Origin: Candidatus Microthrix parvicella Bio17-1
Lineage (GTDB): Bacteria; Actinomycetota; Acidimicrobiia; Acidimicrobiales; Microtrichaceae
Assembly: GCF_000299415.1 (NCBI RefSeq)
Contig: NZ_AMPG01000003.1
Span: 440,093 to 504,092, forward strand
DNA: 64,000 nt
Direction of reading: 5' to 3'
The translations under genes were made by a program, and so were the position numbers. Positions 32,373 through 43,147 of the stretch are shown piece after piece (position 1 is the first letter of the stretch; each line of letters opens with the position of its first letter). The notes under the pieces were generated by a model. The model worked only from the letters and a program-made list of their open reading frames with translations, searched no databases and was not told the origin of the DNA.

Positions 32373-33188
32373 ATGCGACGCGTTACTCGTCGGATTGTCG
32401 TGATCGCACTCTGGGGTCCCAAGGGCGGGCAGGGTGTCAGCGTCACGGTTGCGTCGTTGGCGTTGTCCCATGTGCGGAGGTCACAGGACAGCGTGGCCAT
32501 CGTGGACCTGGCCGGCGACCAGCCGGCGCTCCTGGGGGCGACGGGAATCCAGTCGGTCGGTGTACTCGACTGGCTGGCGAGCGACGCGGCGGGCGGAGCG
32601 CTGGAACGCACGGCCCTGAACGTGGCGGAGCGGTTGACGGTGGTGCCACTCGGTGGGGGCGACGTGTCGGGGCGCGACACCGGTTCGGGTGGGTTGACCC
32701 CTGGTGGCCATGGGGCGGCCGGCCGGATCGACGCGCTGTGGCGGGCGGTCGATGGCCTGGCCGACGTCGTCCTGGTCGATGTTGGCGTTCCCTCCGCTCG
32801 TGACGGCATGGTCGAACCGGCCGCAACGGCCGGGGCCGACGATCTCCGACGAGCGGCGGTGCTGGCGGCCGCAAACAACGTGGTGGTGATCCGTGCCTGC
32901 TACCTGGCCCTGCGGCGATTCCGTGGTTTGAACCTGCGCTGCGACTCGGCGGTGTTGGTGCGCGAGCCTCAGCGCGCCCTCAGCCGGGGTGATGTTGCCG
33001 ACACACTCGATGCGCCGGTGTCGGCCACGGTGGAACTCGACCCGGCGGTGGCGCGGTCGGTGGATTCCGGAATGTTGGTGTCACGTCTTCCTCGACGCCT
33101 GGACCGAACGATGGCGGCGCTGGCAGACCTCCTGCTCGTCGACGGTGTTCACGCCGCGGCCGCCAGCGAGCGGAAGTCGGCGGGCTGA
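32373..33188 (+). CDS. CpaE/TadZ-like ParA-family protein with degenerate P-loop
   Basis: This 271-aa SIMIBI-fold protein is at the head of the Tad pilus operon. CpaE/TadZ proteins position the Tad secretion machine at the pole or membrane. The deviant Walker A reads WGPKGGQGVSV where KGGxGKT is usual, so the catalytic Lys and the Thr are missing, while the signature Lys of the first part (PKGG) remains. Walker A'-like SVAIVDLAGDQPAL and VVLVDVG are visible. The C-terminal part has LDAPVSATVELDPAVARSVDSG, as in pilus-assembly ATPases. ATP binding without hydrolysis, or no ATP binding at all, is likely. tadA begins 1 bp after its stop. Confidence 0.75.
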   Translation: MRRVTRRIVVIALWGPKGGQGVSVTVASLALSHVRRSQDSVAIVDLAGDQPALLGATGIQSVGVLDWLASDAAGGALERTALNVAERLTVVPLGGGDVSGRDTGSGGLTPGGHGAAGRIDALWRAVDGLADVVLVDVGVPSARDGMVEPAATAGADDLRRAAVLAAANNVVVIRACYLALRRFRGLNLRCDSAVLVREPQRALSRGDVADTLDAPVSATVELDPAVARSVDSGMLVSRLPRRLDRTMAALADLLLVDGVHAAAASERKSAG

Positions 33189-33189
33189 G

Positions 33190-34407
33190 GTGGCACCCGA
33201 CCTGCGCGCTCGACAAGTCGGCCCCCCGAAGGGGACCGGGCCTTCGTTCGGCACGGGAGGGCCTGCCGAAGCGGTATCCGGTTCGGAGATCGCCTCCCTG
33301 GCCAGGCGGGTGCGGGCGGTGCTGGAACGCCGTGAGCCCAGCGGGGAGTGGCCGGTTTCGGCGGTTGCGGCGGTGCTGGCGGAGTTCGACCCGCTCCAGC
33401 AGACGTCGCGGCACCTACAGGTGGCGGAGGAGGTTCGGGCGGAGCTGGTTGGGCTTGGTCCGGTGGCGGCCCTCCTGGCTCTTCCCGGGGTGACCGACGT
33501 TTTGGTCAACGGTCCGGGTCCGGTGTGGATCGAACGCTCCGGCCGCGTTGAGGCCACAGGGGTGACCTTGAGCGAGGCCGATGTGTACCGGTTGGTGGAA
33601 CGCACGCTGGGGCCGCTTGGCAAGCGCGTCGACCCCGCTTCGCCGGTCGCCGACGCGGCGATGGCCGACGGTACCCGGGTGGCGGTGGTGGTGCCGCCGG
33701 TGGCCCTCGGTGGCCCGGTGCTGGCCTACCGGCGCTTCGAGGTGCGAGCGGTGCCGCTGGATGCGCTGGCAGGTCCCGCCCAGGTCGATGCGTTGATGGG
33801 GATCCTGAAGGCTCGCAACAACGTGATCGTGTTTGGGGGCACCGGAGCCGGAAAAACCACGCTGCTGGACGCGCTTTGCTCACAACTGCCCCCGCACGAG
33901 CGTCTGGTGGTGGTTGAGGACACGGCCGAGCTGATGCCCCCGGGGCGGCATCTGGTGCGTCTGGAAGCTCGCCGTGCCAATGCCGAAGGTGCAGGTTCGG
34001 TCGATCTGGGCGACCTGGTTCGTGCGGCGCTTCGGCTGCGACCCGACCGGCTGATCGTCGGGGAGGTGCGTGGGGGCGAGGCCGCCGATCTGGTCAGTGC
34101 GCTGTCAACCGGTCACGACGGGGGCCTGTCCACCGTGCACGCAGGAAACCCCGCCGAGGCGATGGATCGCCTGGAGTCGCTCACCCTGCTCGGTGCCCCG
34201 GGCTTGGGCATCGCCGGCATTCGCCGTCGGTTGCATGCTGCCGTGGACGTGTTGGTTGGGGTTGAACGTCGAGGCGACGGGTCCCGCGGTGTTGTCGGTG
34301 TGTGGAGCCTGGAAGGAACGGCCGAATCGCCCACTTTTGTGCCGCTGGCGGGTTCGGCCCCGGTGCCGCTGCCTGGCGAAAGTCGACGAGGTGTGGGTCG
34401 TGGGTGA
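33190..34407 (+). CDS. tadA: Tad secretion ATPase TadA/CpaF
   Basis: This 405-aa type II/IV secretion ATPase powers Flp pilus assembly. The N-domain contains VTDVLVNGPGPVWIERSGR. Walker A is IVFGGTGAGKTTLLDAL, followed by the Asp box VVVEDTAEL, RPDRLIVGEVRGGEAADLV (Walker B region) and the His box STVHAGNPAEAMDRLE. GTG 33190 starts immediately after the CpaE-like gene; the open frame continues upstream but lies within that gene. The next gene overlaps by 8 nt. Confidence 0.92.
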   Translation: MAPDLRARQVGPPKGTGPSFGTGGPAEAVSGSEIASLARRVRAVLERREPSGEWPVSAVAAVLAEFDPLQQTSRHLQVAEEVRAELVGLGPVAALLALPGVTDVLVNGPGPVWIERSGRVEATGVTLSEADVYRLVERTLGPLGKRVDPASPVADAAMADGTRVAVVVPPVALGGPVLAYRRFEVRAVPLDALAGPAQVDALMGILKARNNVIVFGGTGAGKTTLLDALCSQLPPHERLVVVEDTAELMPPGRHLVRLEARRANAEGAGSVDLGDLVRAALRLRPDRLIVGEVRGGEAADLVSALSTGHDGGLSTVHAGNPAEAMDRLESLTLLGAPGLGIAGIRRRLHAAVDVLVGVERRGDGSRGVVGVWSLEGTAESPTFVPLAGSAPVPLPGESRRGVGRG

Positions 34408-35098
34408 TCTGTTCGTTTCCGCAATCGCCGGCTCGGCAGCCGCAGCGGCTTGGCTGATCCCGACGCTTGGCCCGGTCGCACGACGTTCGGTGGAGTCGCC
34501 CACAATCCCGTCCACCACCCCGACCACGACCCCGTCGGACCGCAAGCCTCGGCATCCCGGGTCGGGGGAGGGGGCGGCGGTCGGGGCCCTGGCCGAGGCC
34601 TTGGCTGCGCGCGTTCGGTCCGGGGCATCGTTGCCCGAGGCGCTCGGCCAGGCGGACGCACCGGAGCCGCTCGGTGAAGACGTGCGGGTGCTGGCGCTTG
34701 AGTTGCGGCGGGGTGTGCCGTTGGACGATGCGCTCCGAGGGCTGGCCGAGGGCGCACCACTTGAGCGGCGCCTGCTGGTGGCGGCACTGCGGCTGGCGGC
34801 CCGGCACGGCGGCCGCACCGCCGATGCGCTGGACGGGGTGGCCAACACGCTTCGCGACCGGAGGGCCGTCGCTGCCGAGCTGGCTGCTCAGACCTCTCAA
34901 GCCCGTTTGTCGGCCTGGGTGCTCGTGGCGCTGCCGCCGCTGTTTCTGGTGCTTGGTTCGGTGGTCGACCCGAGGCTGATCGGGGCGGTGGCCACCCCCG
35001 CCGGCGTCGTGGTGCTTGCCGTGGCGGTCGCGCTGGAGGTGGTTGGTTTCGTGTGGAGCCGTCGCATCCTCGCCTCCGGGGTGGGCGGTGACACGTGA
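34400..35098 (+). CDS. tadB: Tad pilus inner-membrane platform protein, TadB-like (short)
   Basis: This 232-aa membrane protein has a T2SSF/GspF-type helical domain (AEALAARVRSGASLPEAL, LAARHGGRTADALDGVANTLRDRRAV) and C-terminal helices (LVALPPLFLVLGS, GVVVLAVAVALEVVGFVW). It is shorter than typical TadB (~310 aa), lacking part of the N-terminal membrane region. GTG 34400 sits in the tadA stop region; GTG 34391 is also possible. With the next gene it forms the usual TadB-TadC pair. Its GTGA overlap couples it to tadC. Confidence 0.8.
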   Translation: MGDLFVSAIAGSAAAAAWLIPTLGPVARRSVESPTIPSTTPTTTPSDRKPRHPGSGEGAAVGALAEALAARVRSGASLPEALGQADAPEPLGEDVRVLALELRRGVPLDDALRGLAEGAPLERRLLVAALRLAARHGGRTADALDGVANTLRDRRAVAAELAAQTSQARLSAWVLVALPPLFLVLGSVVDPRLIGAVATPAGVVVLAVAVALEVVGFVWSRRILASGVGGDT

Positions 35099-35862
35099 GC
35101 GCCGTCACCACGATCGCCGTGGGGTGGTTGGGCTGGGCCGCGTGGACGTCGACCTCCATGAACGCCGCCGCTTCGTCGACCAACTCGGCCAGACACCTCG
35201 GTTGGGCTGAGGGCGCCCCCGGCCTCCCCGGGGTGATCGAGGGTGAGCAGCAATCGCGGGAGCCCGCCGGGGGCCTCGATCGCCGCTCCCGCATTGCGCT
35301 GGTGCTCGGCGGCGTGGCCCTGTTGGTTCACCCCGTCCTGGCGTTGGTGGTCGTCGCCTGGTGGGGAAAGGGGCGGCTGGCCCGACGCCGAGTGAGGCTG
35401 GCCCAAGTAGCGGCACGGCGGGCTGCCGTCCCCGAGATCGCTGATCTGTTTGTTGTGGCGTTGTCGGCGGGTCTGACCGTTCGGGGAGCCATCCTCGGCG
35501 TTGCGGAGGTTGTCTCGGGACCGTTGTCCGACGACCTTCGAATGGCAGGCCGGGGTCTGGCCCAGGGTGATTCGATCCGCCGAGTGCTCGATCAATGGAG
35601 CGAATCGGAGCATCCCCTGGAACCGATCGGTGCGGCGCTGGCGGCCGCTGACCGATCCGGCTCGGCGGCGACACCGCTGCTGGCCCGCTGCGCCGATCAG
35701 CAACGTGAGTTGGCCCGGCGCCGGGCGGAGGCGCTGGTGCGACGGTTGCCGGTTCGGCTGCTCGGCCCGTTGGTGCTGTGCATCCTTCCGGCACTGATGG
35801 CGGCCACCTTTGGACCGTTGGCGATCGTCTCGTTTCGCCAATTGGGCGATGCGGTGCCGTAA
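35095..35862 (+). CDS. tadC: Tad pilus inner-membrane platform protein, TadC-like
   Basis: This 255-aa membrane protein has a T2SSF domain (EIADLFVVALSAGLTVRGAI, GSAATPLLARCADQQRELARRRAEALVRRLP). Hydrophobic helices lie near residues 70-90 and at the end (GPLVLCILPALMAATFGP). It pairs with TadB as the membrane platform of the Tad machine. The start GTG overlaps the tadB stop as GTGA. An 86-bp gap with a good ribosome-binding site separates it from the pilin gene. Confidence 0.8.
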   Translation: MSAVTTIAVGWLGWAAWTSTSMNAAASSTNSARHLGWAEGAPGLPGVIEGEQQSREPAGGLDRRSRIALVLGGVALLVHPVLALVVVAWWGKGRLARRRVRLAQVAARRAAVPEIADLFVVALSAGLTVRGAILGVAEVVSGPLSDDLRMAGRGLAQGDSIRRVLDQWSESEHPLEPIGAALAAADRSGSAATPLLARCADQQRELARRRAEALVRRLPVRLLGPLVLCILPALMAATFGPLAIVSFRQLGDAVP

Positions 35863-35948
35863 CCGCAACGTCTCGGGCGCAACCCGCCACAGCCCTACCA
35901 ACGCAATTCCACCCGATTCATCCAACCCAACCCAACCAGGAGCATCAC

Positions 35949-36209
35949 ATGTCAGCGATCAAGCACGTCCCACTCAGCATCATTCACCAACTCACGACCC
36001 AACGTGAGGTGCCCGGTTACCGGCCGACCGGCCAACCTCCCCGGACCGTTCGCCGCTTGGACCGGGGTCAGAGCACGGTGGAGTACGCCCTTCTGGTGGT
36101 GGGCATTGCCACCCTCGCGCTGCTGGTACTGGCATGGGCGAGCTCGACCGATGTGGTTGGGGCACTGTTCGACCGTGTGTTTCGGTGGGTCACGGGAAGG
36201 GTGGGGTGA
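35949..36209 (+). CDS. Flp-type pilin / DUF4244-like small prepilin
   Basis: This 86-aa protein has a 40-residue polar leader ending DRG, followed by QSTVEYALLVVGIATLALLVLAWA. That is the prepilin processing site (cleavage expected after Gly) with the conserved Glu at +5 and a hydrophobic helix, as in Flp pilins and the DUF4244 proteins of actinobacterial Tad loci. The ATG is preceded by AGGAG. The gene overlaps the TadE-like gene by 4 nt (GTGA). No prepilin peptidase gene is found next to it. Confidence 0.82.
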   Translation: MSAIKHVPLSIIHQLTTQREVPGYRPTGQPPRTVRRLDRGQSTVEYALLVVGIATLALLVLAWASSTDVVGALFDRVFRWVTGRVG

Positions 36210-36592
36210 TCGGCCCGTCCCGACGGTGCCGCGGGCAGTCCACCGTTGAGCTGGCGGCGGTCTTGCCGGTACTGGTCATTCTGACCCTGTTGGTCATTCA
36301 GGCGGCGTTGGTGGGCCGGGACCGAATCGTCCTGACCCACCGCTGTCGTGCCGCAGCGCGCGCTGCGATGGTGACGCCAACCAACGCAGCGGCGACCGAT
36401 GCCGGAAAGGGTGCAGCGTCGGAGGGGTCCGGTTTCGTCGCTCACCTGGAGGGCAGGATCGCCGTCGGAGAGCTGGTGACCGTGGGTTGCCGGCAACGGC
36501 TGGTGACCGGGCTGCCGTTGGTCGGACCGATGCTCGGTGACCCTGAGGTCACCGAGCGGTTTGTTGTCCGAATCGAATCGGTCGGCGACTGA
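36206..36592 (+). CDS. TadE-like pseudopilin
   Basis: This 128-aa protein has a short basic leader and the TadE signature CRGQSTVELAAVLPVLVILTLLVIQ. That is a Gly/Gln prepilin-like cleavage site, a Glu at +5 and one membrane helix. A soluble C-terminal region with no recognised domain follows. The start GTG overlaps the pilin stop. It is the last gene of the Tad operon (cpaE-like, tadA, tadB, tadC, flp, tadE) and is convergent with the glutathione peroxidase gene 52 bp away. Confidence 0.82.
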   Translation: MIGPSRRCRGQSTVELAAVLPVLVILTLLVIQAALVGRDRIVLTHRCRAAARAAMVTPTNAAATDAGKGAASEGSGFVAHLEGRIAVGELVTVGCRQRLVTGLPLVGPMLGDPEVTERFVVRIESVGD

Positions 36593-36644: not shown

Positions 36645-37121
36645 TTAGGACCGGAAGTTGGCCAGGTCGGCCTGGATCTCCTCGGGTTCAACCTGTGGCT
36701 CGTAGCGCTTCAGTGGCGTGCCGTCGCCGCCGACCAGGAACTTGGTGAAGTTCCAGGCGATGTCGCCGTTGCCGTCGGCTTTGGGCAACGCCTCGCGCAG
36801 CATCCGGTAGAGGGGGTTGGCGTCGTCGCCGTTGACGTCCACCTTGGCCATGAGCTGGAACGGCTCGCCATAGTTTTCCCGCACGAAGGACAGGATCTCC
36901 TCCTCGGTGCCGGGCTCCTGGGCGCCAAACTGGTTGCAGGGCACCCCCAGCACCACCAGGTCGTCGTTGGTCTCATCGAGGGTACGCAGACCTGCGTACT
37001 GTCCGGTGAGGCCTCAATAGCTGGCGACGTTGACCACCAGCACCAATTTGCCGGCGTAGGTGGAAAACGAAATCTGCTCGCCGGTGATCGACGTCATCTC
37101 CAGGTCGTGGAACGTGCTCAT
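36645..37121 (-). CDS. Selenocysteine-containing glutathione peroxidase (in-frame TGA)
   Basis: This 158-aa thiol peroxidase would reduce H2O2 and organic hydroperoxides with its catalytic chalcogen residue. The frame contains one internal TGA at codon 36 (positions 37014-37016), exactly where the family has catalytic Cys or Sec: LVVNVASY-TGA-GLTGQYAGL. The rest is canonical: VLGVPCNQFGAQEP carries the catalytic Gln, and GDIAWNFTKFLVG carries the catalytic Trp and Asn. A hairpin of bacterial SECIS type starts 14 nt after the TGA, with the apical sequence GCAGGUCUGC seen in E. coli fdhF. So TGA is read here as selenocysteine. The ATG follows AAGGG by 6 nt. A conventional call would start at an internal ATG after the TGA and lose the active site. 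It assumes selA/B/C/D elsewhere in the genome; a sequencing error (TGC to TGA) is the alternative. Confidence 0.88.
36982..36999 (-). promoter_or_regulatory. Bacterial SECIS hairpin of the glutathione peroxidase
   Basis: On the coding strand, GTACGCA and TGCGTAC pair perfectly around a GGTC loop. It begins 14 nt after the TGA codon, so the loop is about 21 nt from the TGA, within the 16-37 nt range usual for bacterial SECIS elements. The loop and closing pairs (GCAGGUCUGC) match those of the E. coli formate dehydrogenase H element bound by SelB. It overlaps codons for Tyr-Ala-Gly-Leu-Arg in the conserved helix after the active site. Confidence 0.85.
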
Positions 37122-37158
37122 GGCTGCCCTTCTGAGGGGTGGGTGGTTGGATGCGACC

Positions 37159-39612
37159 CTACCGGCGGAGTGGTGCCATGTCGTGTGACTCGGGAGTGCG
37201 ACCTTGCGTCGTGGTGTCCGCTCGACGGCCCAACAGGCCGTCGAGCACCACCAGTGCCCCCGCCTTGTCCAGGGGCTCGTTGAGGTTGCCGCACTTTGGG
37301 GACTGCACGCAGGAGGGACAACCGCCGACGCACGGGCACTCGTCGATGGCGTCGCGGGTGGCGGCCAGGTGGCGCTCCGCGATCCGTTCGGCGAGCTCGG
37401 CGATGCCGGCGCCGCCGGGGTAGCCGTCGTGGATCAATACGGTGGGCCCTCCGGTGTCGGGATGGCAGGCGGTGGACAGCCCGCCCACGTCCCACCGGTC
37501 GCACAGGCCGAACAATCCCAGCATGCCGATGGCTCCATGTTCGGCTGCGTGGAGCGCGCCCGGCAGCACGTCCGGGTCGAGCAGCCGGGTGGGGACAGCG
37601 CCGTCTGAGGTTGCAGGGCCGCCCCAGATCGCCGGTTCATCCAAGGTGAATACCACAGCTCGGGTTTCCAGCTCCTGGGGCGGCAGCTCCAACCGGGTCG
37701 TGCCGAGGTTCTCGTGGCTGCCCACCGCACGTCGCTGGTAGCCGGTGACCCTGCTCGTCACCAGCACGGGTGCCACCCTCACCCGCCCCGGCATGCCCGA
37801 TGCGTCTCGGGAACGGCCCGAGTACTCCAGTGGCCGAGCGTCGGGCAGTTCCAAGATGCGCACGTCGGAGTCGGTGCGGGCCAGCGTGTAGGTGTCACCC
37901 CGATCGGGCTCCACCTCGGCCACGCGGGCATCGAGGTCCAGGCGGTTCACCCTCCAGGCGCGGCCCCGGTGCAGGTAGATGGCACCCTCGTGCACCGTTT
38001 CGGGCGCCCGCCCGGAGCCGACGGTGCCGACCAACTCGTCGCCGTGGCGGATCTCCACCTCGGCGGCATCGGTGGACCTCAGGCCGATCAGCGAGAACGG
38101 CCAGCGGGTGCCGGCCCACGTGGCCACCACCTCACGCCCCGCGCCCCGCCCCCGGTGCCTCACGCTCAGCGCCCCGCTTCGGGCCAAGGTGGTGACGGCC
38201 TCGTCCAACTCGCCGGGCCAATAGCGGTCGTCGTCGTGTCTCAGCGGGTACTCGTGAGCGGCACACAGCAGGTGCGGGTGGAGGACGTAGGGGTTGTAGG
38301 GGTTGATCACGGCTGGTTCGGGCACCCGGGTGAGCAGGTCGCCGGGGTGTCTGGCCATCCACTGGTCCAGCTGATCCTCGCCGCAGACCAGCACTGCGAT
38401 TGACGGGCTTGTGCCACGGCCGGCTCGGCCGATCTGTTGATGAAACGATGCAACCGTGCCGGGAAAGCCACCGCACACCACCGCATCCAGCGAGCCTACG
38501 TCGATGCCCAACTCCAGGGCCGAGGTGGCCACGACGCCCCGCAGGGTTCCGGCAAACAGCTCGGCCTCGATCTCGCGGCGTTCCTTGACGAGGTACCCGG
38601 CCCGGTAGGGGTGCACCAGGTCGCCGACGGCAGCGTCGAGCAACTGGCGCATGCGTGCCCATGCAAGCTCGACACCCTTGCGTGAGCGGGTGAACGCCAA
38701 CGTTCGGTGGCCTCCCTCGATGAGTGCGGCCGCCAGGGTGGCTGTGGCTTCGGTCAACGATTGCGGTGCCAGGCCGGTTTCACCGCCGGTTGTTGCCCCG
38801 GGGTTCCACACCACCACGGTGCGCATGCCCGTGGGCGAGGTGTCGTCGTCCACGACGTCCACCGGGTCGCCGATCAATGCCTCGGCCAACTCGCCGGGTC
38901 GGCCGATCGTCGCCGAGGTGAAAATGAAGGTGGGATCCGCTCCGTACAACGCGGCCACCCGTCGAAGGCGCCGCAGCACGTTGGCGCTGTGACCCCCGAA
39001 CATGCCCCGAAGCAGGTGCAACTCGTCCACGACCACGTAGCGCAGGTTGCGAAAGAGGCGGGCCCATCGACGGTGATGGGCCAGCAGCCCATGGTGCAAC
39101 ATCTCGGGATTGGTCAGTACCACCCGGGCCGAGTTGCGGGCCCAGGTTCGTTCCTCGGGTCCGGCATCCCCATCCACCGTGGCGGCGAGCAACTCGGTGA
39201 TCCCCAAGCCGCCGAGAGACCGCAGCTGGTCCTGGGCAAGTGCCTTGGTGGGGTAGATGAGCAGGGCCGTGGCGCCACTGCCGGGCGCCGAGACCGCCTC
39301 GGCGATCGGGACCTGAAAGCACCTGGACTTGCCCGAGGCGGTGCCGGTGGCGATCACGGTGTGGCGACCGGCACGGATCAGGTCGATCGCTGCGGCCTGG
39401 TGCGCCCACAGCGGGAGGTCGATCAGGCCCGAGAGTCGGTCCGGCAAGGGTGTCGCCAGGGTCGAGTGCCGGCCCGGGCGTGCGGGCACCGACAGCACAC
39501 CGGCCAACCTGGGGTCGCCGTTCAGGTGGGCCAACGCCGCGGGGAGCGGGGTGCCCGGGTTGACGGTTGTGGGTGAAACCGCTGCGGTCGGGGGCGAAGT
39601 GCGGACGGCCAT
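37159..39612 (-). CDS. DEAD/DEAH-box helicase with C-terminal Cys-rich (DUF1998/MrfA-type) domain
   Basis: This 817-aa superfamily 2 helicase has a Q-motif-like LWAHQAAAIDLI, motif I ATGTASGKSRCF, Ia IYPTKALAQDQ, motif II VVDELHLL (DELH variant), motif III FTSATIG, motif V TSALELGIDVGSLD and motif VI QQIGRAGRG. A long C-terminal region ends with four cysteines (CPCVGGCPSC, with a further Cys in SPKCGN), as in MrfA/Hrq1-type DUF1998 helicases that act in repair of DNA crosslinks or bulky adducts. ATG 39612 gives the N-terminus; the frame is open 48 codons further but without family similarity. It transcribes towards the peroxidase and is divergent from the RsbW-like gene. Confidence 0.87.
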   Translation of the reverse strand: MAVRTSPPTAAVSPTTVNPGTPLPAALAHLNGDPRLAGVLSVPARPGRHSTLATPLPDRLSGLIDLPLWAHQAAAIDLIRAGRHTVIATGTASGKSRCFQVPIAEAVSAPGSGATALLIYPTKALAQDQLRSLGGLGITELLAATVDGDAGPEERTWARNSARVVLTNPEMLHHGLLAHHRRWARLFRNLRYVVVDELHLLRGMFGGHSANVLRRLRRVAALYGADPTFIFTSATIGRPGELAEALIGDPVDVVDDDTSPTGMRTVVVWNPGATTGGETGLAPQSLTEATATLAAALIEGGHRTLAFTRSRKGVELAWARMRQLLDAAVGDLVHPYRAGYLVKERREIEAELFAGTLRGVVATSALELGIDVGSLDAVVCGGFPGTVASFHQQIGRAGRGTSPSIAVLVCGEDQLDQWMARHPGDLLTRVPEPAVINPYNPYVLHPHLLCAAHEYPLRHDDDRYWPGELDEAVTTLARSGALSVRHRGRGAGREVVATWAGTRWPFSLIGLRSTDAAEVEIRHGDELVGTVGSGRAPETVHEGAIYLHRGRAWRVNRLDLDARVAEVEPDRGDTYTLARTDSDVRILELPDARPLEYSGRSRDASGMPGRVRVAPVLVTSRVTGYQRRAVGSHENLGTTRLELPPQELETRAVVFTLDEPAIWGGPATSDGAVPTRLLDPDVLPGALHAAEHGAIGMLGLFGLCDRWDVGGLSTACHPDTGGPTVLIHDGYPGGAGIAELAERIAERHLAATRDAIDECPCVGGCPSCVQSPKCGNLNEPLDKAGALVVLDGLLGRRADTTTQGRTPESHDMAPLRR

Positions 39613-39742
39613 CGGGTCTCCAAGATACGGGCCGCCTGTGACATCGTCCCGGGCACCCGGTGGACCTGGTGGGCAAATCGGCCCGGGGTGATCGGCGTCG
39701 GGGCGGATTGGGCCTAGATTGGTAGACAGAGAAAGGGATCGT

Positions 39743-40321
39743 GTGAAGTCCGGCAATGAGGCTCAACAGTCCGCAGTGGACGGTGTGTCCGGCCCGACGC
39801 GCCGCGACTCCGACCTCGACGATGTCGGCGGTCTGCCGGCGCCCGAGCCGGTGGAGGTGGAGTTCGAGTTTCCCGCCGAGTTGGCCAGCCTGGCCATGGT
39901 GCGCCGGCGGGTGGAGCAGGTCGCCCGGGTGGCGGCCAAGTTGGGCCCCGGCGACCTGGACAAGCTGCGGCTGGTGCTGACCGAAGTGGTGGCCAACGCC
40001 GTATCGGCCCATGCCGAACGCAGGTCCCCGGACGACCTCCGGCTGCGATGTTGTCTCAGCGCAGACCGTCTCGAGGTGTCCATTCTCGATCAGGGCGGTG
40101 GGTTTCTGGCCACCACCGGCTCTCATCCCGTCATCGACACGTCGCTGCCGGATGTGAGCACTCCGGAGGGGCAACAACGCGAGGGCGGCTTCGGGTTGGG
40201 CTTGATCGGTGCCTTCGCCGATGAGGCCGAGTTTCAGCCGGTGGACGGGGGCACCTCGGTTCGCTTCGTCATCTACCCCAGCGGTGGTGTTCCCAACGAC
40301 GCGATCTCACCTCCGCCGTAA
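39743..40321 (+). CDS. RsbW-like anti-sigma-factor serine kinase (HATPase_c_2)
   Basis: This 192-aa GHKL-fold protein has the N box LVLTEVVANAVSAH, the G1 box DQGGGF and the G2 box GGFGLGLIGAFAD, in an otherwise HATPase_c_2-type fold. Such proteins bind and inhibit a sigma factor or phosphorylate an anti-sigma antagonist in partner-switching regulation. No sigma factor or antagonist gene is adjacent, so the partner is unknown. GTG 39743 was chosen because AAAGGG precedes it; a TTG eight codons upstream is possible. About 45 disordered residues precede the domain. The divergent helicase gene is 130 bp away. Confidence 0.78.
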   Translation: MKSGNEAQQSAVDGVSGPTRRDSDLDDVGGLPAPEPVEVEFEFPAELASLAMVRRRVEQVARVAAKLGPGDLDKLRLVLTEVVANAVSAHAERRSPDDLRLRCCLSADRLEVSILDQGGGFLATTGSHPVIDTSLPDVSTPEGQQREGGFGLGLIGAFADEAEFQPVDGGTSVRFVIYPSGGVPNDAISPPP

Positions 40322-40483: not shown

Positions 40484-43147
40484 TTGTCCGCCGGGCTCGC
40501 GGTGGGTGTCGATGCATGGAGGCCCCCGCTGACCATTCTGCTCCTCCTGCACCTGTGCTTTGGCGTGGCCCTGCTCTGCGTTGGACGCTCCGGTGACCGT
40601 CGGCTGTTTGCCGTGGCGGCGATTCCTCCTGCGGTGACGTTGGTGTGGGCGCTTGTGTCCGCCGGCGGCATTCTCGACGGGTCAGCGGTGACCGAGTCGA
40701 TCCCGTGGGTCCGAGGGCTTGACCTGAGCCTGGACGTGCGGGTCGATGCGTTTTCGCTGGTGATGGTGTTGCTCGTCGCCGGCATCGGCCTGGGGATCCA
40801 GGCCTACGCCGGGCGATACTTCAACCGGGACACCCCAGACCTGGGTCGTCTCGCAGGTCTGCTGACCTTGTTTGCCGGAGCGATGTTGGGGCTGGTGACC
40901 GCCAACCACCTGATGTGGCTCTACGTGTGCTGGGAGCTGACGTCGATCACGTCGTACCTCCTCATCGGGTGGGCAGATCGCGATCCCAACGCTCGGTCCT
41001 CGGCGTTGCAGGCGCTGCTGACGACCGGCGCGGGCGGCCTGGTGATGTTGGTGGGTCTCATCCTCGTGGGGCAGACGGCCGGAACGTATGAGTTGTCGGC
41101 CATCGTGGCCTCGCCGCCGTCGGGTACCACGGTCACCGTGGGGCTTGGGTGCATCTTGGTCGGGGCCTTCACCAAGTCGGCGCAGTTCCCGTTCTCGTCG
41201 TGGCTCCCCGGCGCCATGGTGGCACCCACGCCGATCTCCGCCTACCTGCACTCGGCAACGATGGTGAAGGCGGGCGTGTACCTGGTGGCGCGGTTTGCCC
41301 CGCCGTTTGCCGACGTCGGGTTCTGGCGGCCGACGGTGCTCACCATCGCCCTGATCACCATGATCACCGGCGGCGCCAGGGCGCTCCAGCAGACCGACCT
41401 CAAGCGCCTGTTGGCTTTTGGCACCGTCAGCCAGCTCGGGTTTCTGATGGTGCTTTTCGGGGCGGGCCGGCCGGATGCCACCCTGGCCGGGGTGGTGCTC
41501 ATCATCGCCCACGCACTGTTCAAGGCGCCGCTGTTCATGGTGGTTGGCGTCATCGACCACCAGGCTCACACCCGTGATGTTCGGTCGTTGGGCGTGTGGG
41601 GTCCAGGATGGGCCGGACCCAAGTGGGTGGCGGTTGCGTCAGGCCTGTCGATGGCCGGCATCCCGTTTCTTTTTGGGTTTATTGCGAAGGAGGCCGCGTA
41701 CGAGGCGTTCTCCCATCACGCCGGCACGGGCGAGTGGTTGGTGCTCGTCGGCATCGTTGCAGGATCGGTGTTGACCTTCGCCTACACTGGGCGGTTCCTG
41801 CTTGGTGCCTTCACCGATCGTTCGGTGCCCGAGTGCGTCAGGTCCTCGGCACCGGTGAAGTTGACGGGCGAGGCACCCGAGCAGGCTGCGGGCGAAGCGG
41901 GCGTCGCAGCCAACGCATCGTCATCGGCGTCAGCGTTGGCATCAACGTCGGCCAAGGCTCCTGCCTTCGCCTTTTGGGCGCCCGCTGGGGTGCTTGCGGG
42001 CTTCACAGTGGTGTTGGGGGTCGTGCCGGCGTTGGCGTCACGTCTCGTGTATGGCGCGGCAGCGTCCCTGGACTCCTCGGTCGAGGCCACCGGCCACCTC
42101 GCGCTGTGGCACGGCTTCTCCACCCCGCTGCTGCTGAGTGCCGTCACCGTTGGGCTCGGTTGCATCATGGTGCTGGGGGCGCGCCGGGTGGCCGCCGCCC
42201 AGGCGGCGGTTCCCTCGCTGGCGCTCGGCGACTCGGCCTACCTCGGGTTGTTGCGTCTGTTGAACCTGACCGCAGACCGGGTCACCGGTGTGGTTCAGTC
42301 GGGATCACTGCCCACCTACGTCGGCGTGGTGCTCGTCACGGTGGTGACCGTGCCAGGCGTGGGGCTCATCGGGGAGCTCCAGGGCCAGGCCCTCCCGCGG
42401 TTTGCCGACAGCCCTGGCGAGGTGGCGGTGACCGCGCTCATCATCGTGGCGGCCGCGGCGGCCGCCACGATCCGGCGCCGCCTGTCGGCCGTGCTTTGCC
42501 TGGGTGCGGTCGGCTACGGCATGTCGCTTCTGTATGTGCTGAGGGGCGCACCAGACCTGGCACTCACCCAGTTGGGCATCGAGACGCTGGGTGCGGTGCT
42601 GTTCGTGTTGGTGCTCCGAGTCTTGCCGAATGAATTTCGCGAGCGGGCCACGCCGTTGGGGCGGATGGTGCGGCTGGCAATCTCGGGTGCCGTTGGCCTG
42701 TTCGTCTTCGTGTTCGCATTGGTGGCGTCCGGCGCACGTACCGCCCGCCCCGTCTCTGATGAGTTCCTGGCCCGGTCGGTTTCCGAGGGCGGCGGATCCA
42801 ACGTGGTCAACGTCATCCTGGTGGACTTCCGTGGCTTCGACACGTTGGGCGAGATCACCGTGCTCACCGTGGCGGCGCTTGGTCTGGTGGCGCTGGGGCG
42901 TGCCGGTGCTCGAGGCTTGACCATCGGCACCCCGGCAGAGGACGCACGGGTGGTTCCTGGCCTGAAGGCCTACCTGGAGCCCCGAAATCGTGGGCGCTCT
43001 CGGGCCGGTGGCGGTGCTCAGGGCAACAGGGAGTCTTCGACGCGGTCACCCACCGGCTCCGACACCGATGCGCAGCCTGATCCCTCTGAGGACGACCCCG
43101 ACCTTGGCGGACCCCACGCTGGGATTGACGCCGGCGGTTCGCCGTGA
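40484..43147 (+). CDS. mrpA: Mrp Na+/H+ antiporter subunit A (MrpA/MnhA)
   Basis: This 887-aa membrane protein is the large NuoL-like subunit of the multi-subunit Na+(K+)/H+ antiporter. The proton-path signatures are WLYVCWELTSITSYLLIGW (conserved Glu) and AQFPFSSWLPGAMVAPTPISAYLHSATMVKAG (conserved Lys). The C-terminal part (LGAVGYGMSLLYVLRGAPDLALTQLGIETL, FDTLGEITVLTVAALG) corresponds to the MbhD/MnhB-like segment fused in MrpA. A Ser/Ala-rich linker (~residues 465-490) interrupts the helices, and the last ~55 residues are charged and disordered. The start is uncertain (TTG 40484 or GTG 40502). It is first in a seven-gene operon with 4-nt overlaps. Confidence 0.9.
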   Translation: MSAGLAVGVDAWRPPLTILLLLHLCFGVALLCVGRSGDRRLFAVAAIPPAVTLVWALVSAGGILDGSAVTESIPWVRGLDLSLDVRVDAFSLVMVLLVAGIGLGIQAYAGRYFNRDTPDLGRLAGLLTLFAGAMLGLVTANHLMWLYVCWELTSITSYLLIGWADRDPNARSSALQALLTTGAGGLVMLVGLILVGQTAGTYELSAIVASPPSGTTVTVGLGCILVGAFTKSAQFPFSSWLPGAMVAPTPISAYLHSATMVKAGVYLVARFAPPFADVGFWRPTVLTIALITMITGGARALQQTDLKRLLAFGTVSQLGFLMVLFGAGRPDATLAGVVLIIAHALFKAPLFMVVGVIDHQAHTRDVRSLGVWGPGWAGPKWVAVASGLSMAGIPFLFGFIAKEAAYEAFSHHAGTGEWLVLVGIVAGSVLTFAYTGRFLLGAFTDRSVPECVRSSAPVKLTGEAPEQAAGEAGVAANASSSASALASTSAKAPAFAFWAPAGVLAGFTVVLGVVPALASRLVYGAAASLDSSVEATGHLALWHGFSTPLLLSAVTVGLGCIMVLGARRVAAAQAAVPSLALGDSAYLGLLRLLNLTADRVTGVVQSGSLPTYVGVVLVTVVTVPGVGLIGELQGQALPRFADSPGEVAVTALIIVAAAAAATIRRRLSAVLCLGAVGYGMSLLYVLRGAPDLALTQLGIETLGAVLFVLVLRVLPNEFRERATPLGRMVRLAISGAVGLFVFVFALVASGARTARPVSDEFLARSVSEGGGSNVVNVILVDFRGFDTLGEITVLTVAALGLVALGRAGARGLTIGTPAEDARVVPGLKAYLEPRNRGRSRAGGGAQGNRESSTRSPTGSDTDAQPDPSEDDPDLGGPHAGIDAGGSP

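Follow-up and report, generated by a model that had tools for sequence, protein, structure and literature searches.

The window, the whole stretch of 64,000 nucleotides analysed here, holds on its minus strand a glutathione peroxidase (GPx) frame that is broken at one codon, which raises the question of whether that codon ends the protein or is read as selenocysteine (Sec). The frame runs from an ATG at 37121 to a TAA ending at 36645, and its single break is a TGA at 37016-37014. The features of the locus are as follows:

36645..37121, minus strand: predicted Sec-glutathione peroxidase gene, 158 aa with the TGA taken as Sec, stop codon TAA
37014..37016, minus strand: in-frame TGA, codon 36, at the peroxidatic site (putative Sec), aligned with Cys codons of homologues
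36982..36999, minus strand: upper stem-loop of the candidate SECIS element, GTACGCA-GGTC-TGCGTAC, starting 14 nt past the TGA
37127..37133, minus strand: AGAAGGG, read from the sequence, 5 nt upstream of the ATG, a motif that we take to be Shine-Dalgarno-like
36645..36956, minus strand: truncated ORF of 103 aa with a GTG start, from the conventional ORF list in which TGA is a stop

A preliminary description of this DNA had given the same frame and coordinates, with AAGGG upstream of the ATG, and had placed the TGA at codon 36, the catalytic position of the GPx family, within the motif VNVASY-U-GLTGQY; our reading agrees on each point. Its expectation that a gene finder would report a 103-aa product without the active site is likewise matched by the conventional ORF list.

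The product belongs to the GPx family. Pfam GSHPx (PF00255) matches residues 4-109 of the 158-aa protein (E 5.1e-35, 119.8 bits, cut-off 27), and homology to GPx is present on both sides of the TGA. An AlphaFold2 model of the protein (pLDDT 88.5, pTM 0.87) resembles the Schistosoma mansoni GPx 2v1m with a TM of 0.94, the top score among the 50 matches listed. The tetrad in this GPx consists of U36, Q68, W123 and N124, where Gln68 is presumably the tetrad Gln. Gln68, Trp123 and Asn124 lie downstream of the TGA, as the preliminary description had said of the remaining catalytic residues, and are kept in all 115 rows of our alignment (25 Sec and 90 Cys copies). The U-x-x-T motif reads U36-G-L-T39, and no second GPx was found in the genome besides 36645..37121. 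A tetrad of Sec or Cys, Gln, Trp and Asn is described for GPx in PMC3824332. Animal SecGPx of the GPX4 type has a like fold (TM 0.87-0.90 to the listed GPX4 structures) and a like tetrad; for these enzymes a cycle using two GSH is described (PMC9925728, PMC3824332).

The genome to which the window belongs (4.2 Mb, 13 contigs, 95% complete) was searched for the sel genes, on whose presence the preliminary description had made its reading depend. All were found: tRNA-Sec (67.8 bits, Rfam cut-off 47; anticodon TCA by ARAGORN), selA (394.7 bits, cut-off 267.9), selB (278.9 bits, cut-off 242.25), whose start lies 49 nt past the selA stop, and selD (352.1 bits, cut-off 125). Because all four are present, the Sec reading withstands this test. 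The selD gene (G000:C3:23101-24048; L052:2051-3080) has an in-frame TGA of its own near the N-terminus, in SHGAGUACKLG, so SelD is a probable second selenoprotein of the genome.

The TGA is not confined to this genome. Among 296 genomes sampled from the class, with GPx counted at E 1e-15 or better, 126 have a GPx; the match contains one TGA in 16 of these, and the TGA, read from the DNA, stands at the active-site codon in all 16 copies. SelA, the sole sel marker scored in relatives, was found in 16/16 TGA-GPx genomes versus 47/110 of the remaining GPx genomes (Fisher p 1.0e-5) and, within the order, in 14/14 versus 16/59 (Fisher p 3.9e-7), p values that overstate independence, as the genomes are related. 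The 110 are genomes with a match without a TGA, plus G078, and most were judged from the match and not from a DNA reading; SelA matches weaker than E 1e-15 were dropped (G126, G134, G149, G163 and G250), three of these five being in GPx genomes, and counting them would give 50/110. SelA does not imply a Sec-GPx, being present also in 47 GPx genomes that lack the TGA form. The GPx of G078 (L050, G078:C88) was rejected as a Sec form, having Cys at the site and two in-frame TGAs downstream; it is probably a frameshifted or decayed gene and was left out of the resolving-Cys alignment and the tree.

A scan of genome_contigs gave nine further TGA copies, all in named MAGs, whose contigs can be wrongly binned:

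L065, L072 and L077: MAGs of Acidimicrobiaceae or Acidimicrobiales (Actinomycetota)
L057, L060, L063, L064 and L121: MAGs of Gammaproteobacteria, including Pseudomonadales
L059: MAG of Deltaproteobacteria

Together with two Cys copies taken up below, these nine make up the named clade loci, and SelA was found in all 11 genomes behind them. The full sequence set (25 Sec, 90 Cys) comprises 31 class matches, 4 viral sequences and 80 genome_contigs loci. The last are the top 80 among at least 593 matches to the Sec alignment, so the proportions in the set should not be read as population frequencies. In the 90 non-TGA rows, TGC or TGT stands opposite codon 36; the motif used to find the rows demanded Cys or a stop at this codon, with Ser also allowed in part. 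The exact TGA plus SECIS pattern, a narrower criterion than family membership that overlooks G051, turned up in 5 of the 396 genomes of a phylum sample, namely this one and four others from its order, and in 0 of the 358 genomes from other classes. IMG/VR yielded four GPx contigs of the Cys type (L053-L056), and none of its contigs showed the exact degenerate pattern; a tblastn search of plasmids returned 184 records, every one below 60% identity.

With 24 further loci bearing TGA at codon 36, agreement among 25 loci from different assemblies and the sel genes in place, a lone sequencing or assembly error, with TGC or TGT misread as TGA, has a negligible chance of being the explanation. Readthrough as such would be compatible with the sequence alone, and the UGA might then be read as some other amino acid, by reassignment or plain readthrough. 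Against this, the site is that of the peroxidatic residue, which is Cys in homologues; tRNA-Sec (TCA), SelA, SelB and SelD are all present; and SelA accompanies the TGA form in all 16 class genomes that have it. We regard such a reading as very improbable.

The preliminary description had also identified a hairpin behind the TGA as a SECIS element. The stem-loop is found at the claimed distance of 14 nt, and its apical decamer, GCAGGTCTGC, is indeed the same as in the E. coli fdhF SECIS, whereas the flanks differ and the decamer lies 18 nt from the TGA here versus 15 nt in fdhF. In the bSECIS model, as presented in PMC13188914, the apical loop has 3-9 nt, the upper stem 4-16 bp, a G occupies one of the first two loop positions and the loop lies 16-37 nt past the UGA. 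The present stem-loop fits this model, which is lax, with a 7 bp stem, the loop GGTC and 21 nt from UGA to loop.

The fit is weaker support than had been implied. A lax hairpin test (stem of at least 7 pairs with G-U allowed, loop of 3-9 nt that has G in its first two positions and lies at a distance of 16-37 nt) is passed by 537 of 2852 codon-phased 60-mers from five window genes and, when the present stretch is recoded synonymously, by 4.1% of 20,000 versions. A fold of 57 nt has -18.8 kcal/mol (z -2.15), a value equalled or bettered by 7/200 shuffles. GCAGGTCTGC occurs three times in the window versus 0.27 expected; the further copies lie at 2298-2307 on the minus strand and 40853-40862 on the plus strand. 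A search of 36645-37160 against Rfam at E up to 5 matched no family, and library support for a SECIS is therefore missing. Taken alone, the hairpin is weak evidence and not unusual in the GC-rich DNA of the window.

Its conservation says more. A 15 nt run, CAGTACGCAGGTCTG, is identical in 16/16 class TGA copies, wobble positions included, and 15 Cys copies vary at the wobble positions matching those fixed in the run; L057 and L064 deviate from it. Across the 25 TGA copies, 171 of 175 stem cells (97.7%) are paired and 4 unpaired, and pairing falls to 0-73% when the partner is slid. L057 shows a both-sided change in the stem, from G-C to A-U, and L021 has G-U at that pair. Covariation over the 25 copies is slight, the observed value being reached by 42/500 shuffles, and is thin because the stem hardly varies. 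Within the stem-loop, GCA, GGT and CGT are codons little used in five genes of the window, where they make up 15, 17 and 11%, respectively, of the codons for their amino acid. Residue 46 is Arg in 23/25 Sec copies, and 89/90 Cys copies have Glu or Gln there; the coding hairpin thus seems to fix protein residues as well, residue 46 being an example. R1, a covariance model for the GPx SECIS, was run on the genome with 150 of 1661 candidates scored and was convincing only at the GPx site; its next three matches have E values of 0.15, 0.56 and 0.84, so that it points to no other selenoprotein. Two single copies may be noted: L072 has AGT (Ser) after the TGA, where the other 24 copies have a Gly codon, and the Cys copy L058 keeps most of the hairpin in a decayed form, CAATACGCAGGTCTTTGTACA.

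These data bear on the reading of the locus as a pseudogene, in which a Cys codon has mutated to a stop and the downstream part is decaying. A conventional reading does cut the gene at codon 36 and leave a 103-aa ORF. However, the TGA is common to 25 loci, all of which keep the catalytic residues; identity to this GPx is 50-60% among 15 aligned TGA loci; the wobble sites of the hairpin are conserved; and G078, with Cys at the site and two TGAs downstream, provides a contrast. We give a pseudogene scarcely any credence. The best explanation, in which we have high confidence, is a short GPX4-like GPx with Sec at residue 36. This view is carried by the sel genes, by where the TGA stands and by the conservation of TGA and hairpin, which likewise support the earlier proposal that the organism makes a selenoprotein peroxidase.

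The 25 Sec copies, together with two Cys copies (L058 and L096), form one clade of 27 rows (support 100/99) in a midpoint-rooted tree whose inner branching is mostly open and whose bootstrap is not fully settled. L072 (Acidimicrobiaceae) adjoins the copy of a same-order genome on short branches, which makes Acidimicrobiales the probable origin of the window. Members of the clade lack the resolving cysteine. Its position is V80 here, and it is Cys in 0/25 Sec copies versus 88/90 Cys copies; the Sec copies have Ala (14), Val (9) or Ile (2), and L057, a Sec copy, has a Cys six residues past it. Among the Cys copies, L058 and L096, both gammaproteobacterial, are the two that have no Cys there. L058 is nested beside L057 (100/89) and is likely a return from Sec to Cys. 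L096 branches off at the clade base, from a fork that the tree does not resolve, and so could be either a further return or an early offshoot in which Sec was never present. The most economical account of the tree would be one change from Cys to Sec, tied to the absence of the resolving Cys, with at least one return.

Bacterial and plant CysGPx share the family with this GPx (class matches without TGA are 40-56% identical, G078 left out) but have Cys and a resolving Cys, where this gene has TGA and a position 80 without Cys. The resolving Cys by which a two-Cys, thioredoxin-type GPx is recognised is absent from this protein. CysGPx with a resolving Cys is described as mostly reduced by thioredoxin and SecGPx as reduced by two glutathione (PMC9925728, PMC3824332), and PMC8614756 speaks of bacterial GPxs as having both cysteines. 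From the absent resolving Cys and these accounts of reductants, we infer that the enzyme probably follows a one-Sec cycle with an external thiol and not one with a thioredoxin-reduced internal disulfide.

Alternatively, a Sec enzyme might resolve internally through another Cys, for instance Cys62, with thioredoxin remaining the reductant. Cys62 is present in 25/25 Sec copies; it is also present in 87/90 Cys copies, nearly all of which have the usual resolving Cys, and is therefore not special to the Sec clade. Internal resolution in this manner appears unlikely. For the external-thiol cycle, mycothiol as the reductant is a guess: the genome encodes an MshC-like protein (414 bits, short of the curated 485.1 cut-off), and the MshC profile also matches in 14/14 control genomes, over the cut-off in one. 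A wider scenario, which we put forward tentatively as possible, would have Cys replaced by Sec and the resolving Cys lost once, the gene spreading among Actinomycetota and Proteobacteria with its SECIS, serving in actinobacteria as a selenium-dependent peroxidase that takes mycothiol or another small thiol in place of thioredoxin, and returning to Cys at least once, with the resolving residue still absent.

What the data show directly is the frame, its homology, the sel genes, the conserved TGA and hairpin and the lack of the resolving Cys; Sec insertion, enzyme activity and the reductant are what we infer. As in the established E. coli system, SelA would charge tRNA-Sec using selenophosphate made by SelD, and SelB with Sec-tRNA would bind the hairpin past the UGA, leading to Sec insertion in place of termination. 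Gln68, Trp123 and Asn124 would complete the catalytic tetrad with Sec36. The enzyme would reduce H2O2 or organic hydroperoxides, and the resulting selenenic acid would be resolved by an external thiol, the Cys at position 80 being absent.

Sec-GPx is an established bacterial selenoprotein family, in print since 2005-2006, to which this GPx adds a member. A Sec-GPx was predicted for T. denticola in 2005 (PMC1242214); the 2006 survey gives one Sec-GPx case, Treponema denticola Gpx (PMC1794560), and a marine metagenome survey of 2008 tabulates Sec GPx with the figure 40, eukaryotes possibly included (PMC2398784). Reviews from 2022 and 2026 present a bacterial Sec GPX-like protein with UxxT (WP_010957027.1; PMC9312934, PMC13188914). 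As described there, that protein has in common with the present one PF00255, Sec at the peroxidatic site, the U-x-x-T motif and a UGA with a downstream SECIS; its host differs. Eukaryotic SECIS elements are placed in the 3' UTR (PMC8881744), whereas the hairpin here lies in the coding region directly past the UGA. No paper was found in the open-access literature on selenocysteine and Microthrix, and no description of this clade among open-access titles and abstracts on selenocysteine in Acidimicrobiia, the GPx resolving Cys or mycothiol.

Turning to the neighbouring DNA, a gene for an MrfA-like DEAD-box helicase (DEAD, Helicase_C and MZB; 37159-39756, minus strand) ends 37 nt upstream of the GPx start. 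As tblastn gave no match to the helicase in 24 clade loci, within flanks of about 300 to 3000 nt, there is no sign of it as a conserved partner. On the other side, a run of ORFs at 32373-36592 of the window (plus strand) gives the impression of a tad pilus locus; its ORF at 36134-36592 (plus strand) is TadE-like and matches Pfam TadE.

Annotation that takes the TGA as a stop leaves a 103-aa fragment of this enzyme without its active site. Beyond the single gene, the locus points to a clade in which Sec use and the absence of the resolving Cys coincide, with one Cys copy (L058) nested inside it and a second (L096) at the fork near its base. Such a clade would allow the chemistry of Sec and Cys peroxidases to be put to a comparative test within a single bacterial family.
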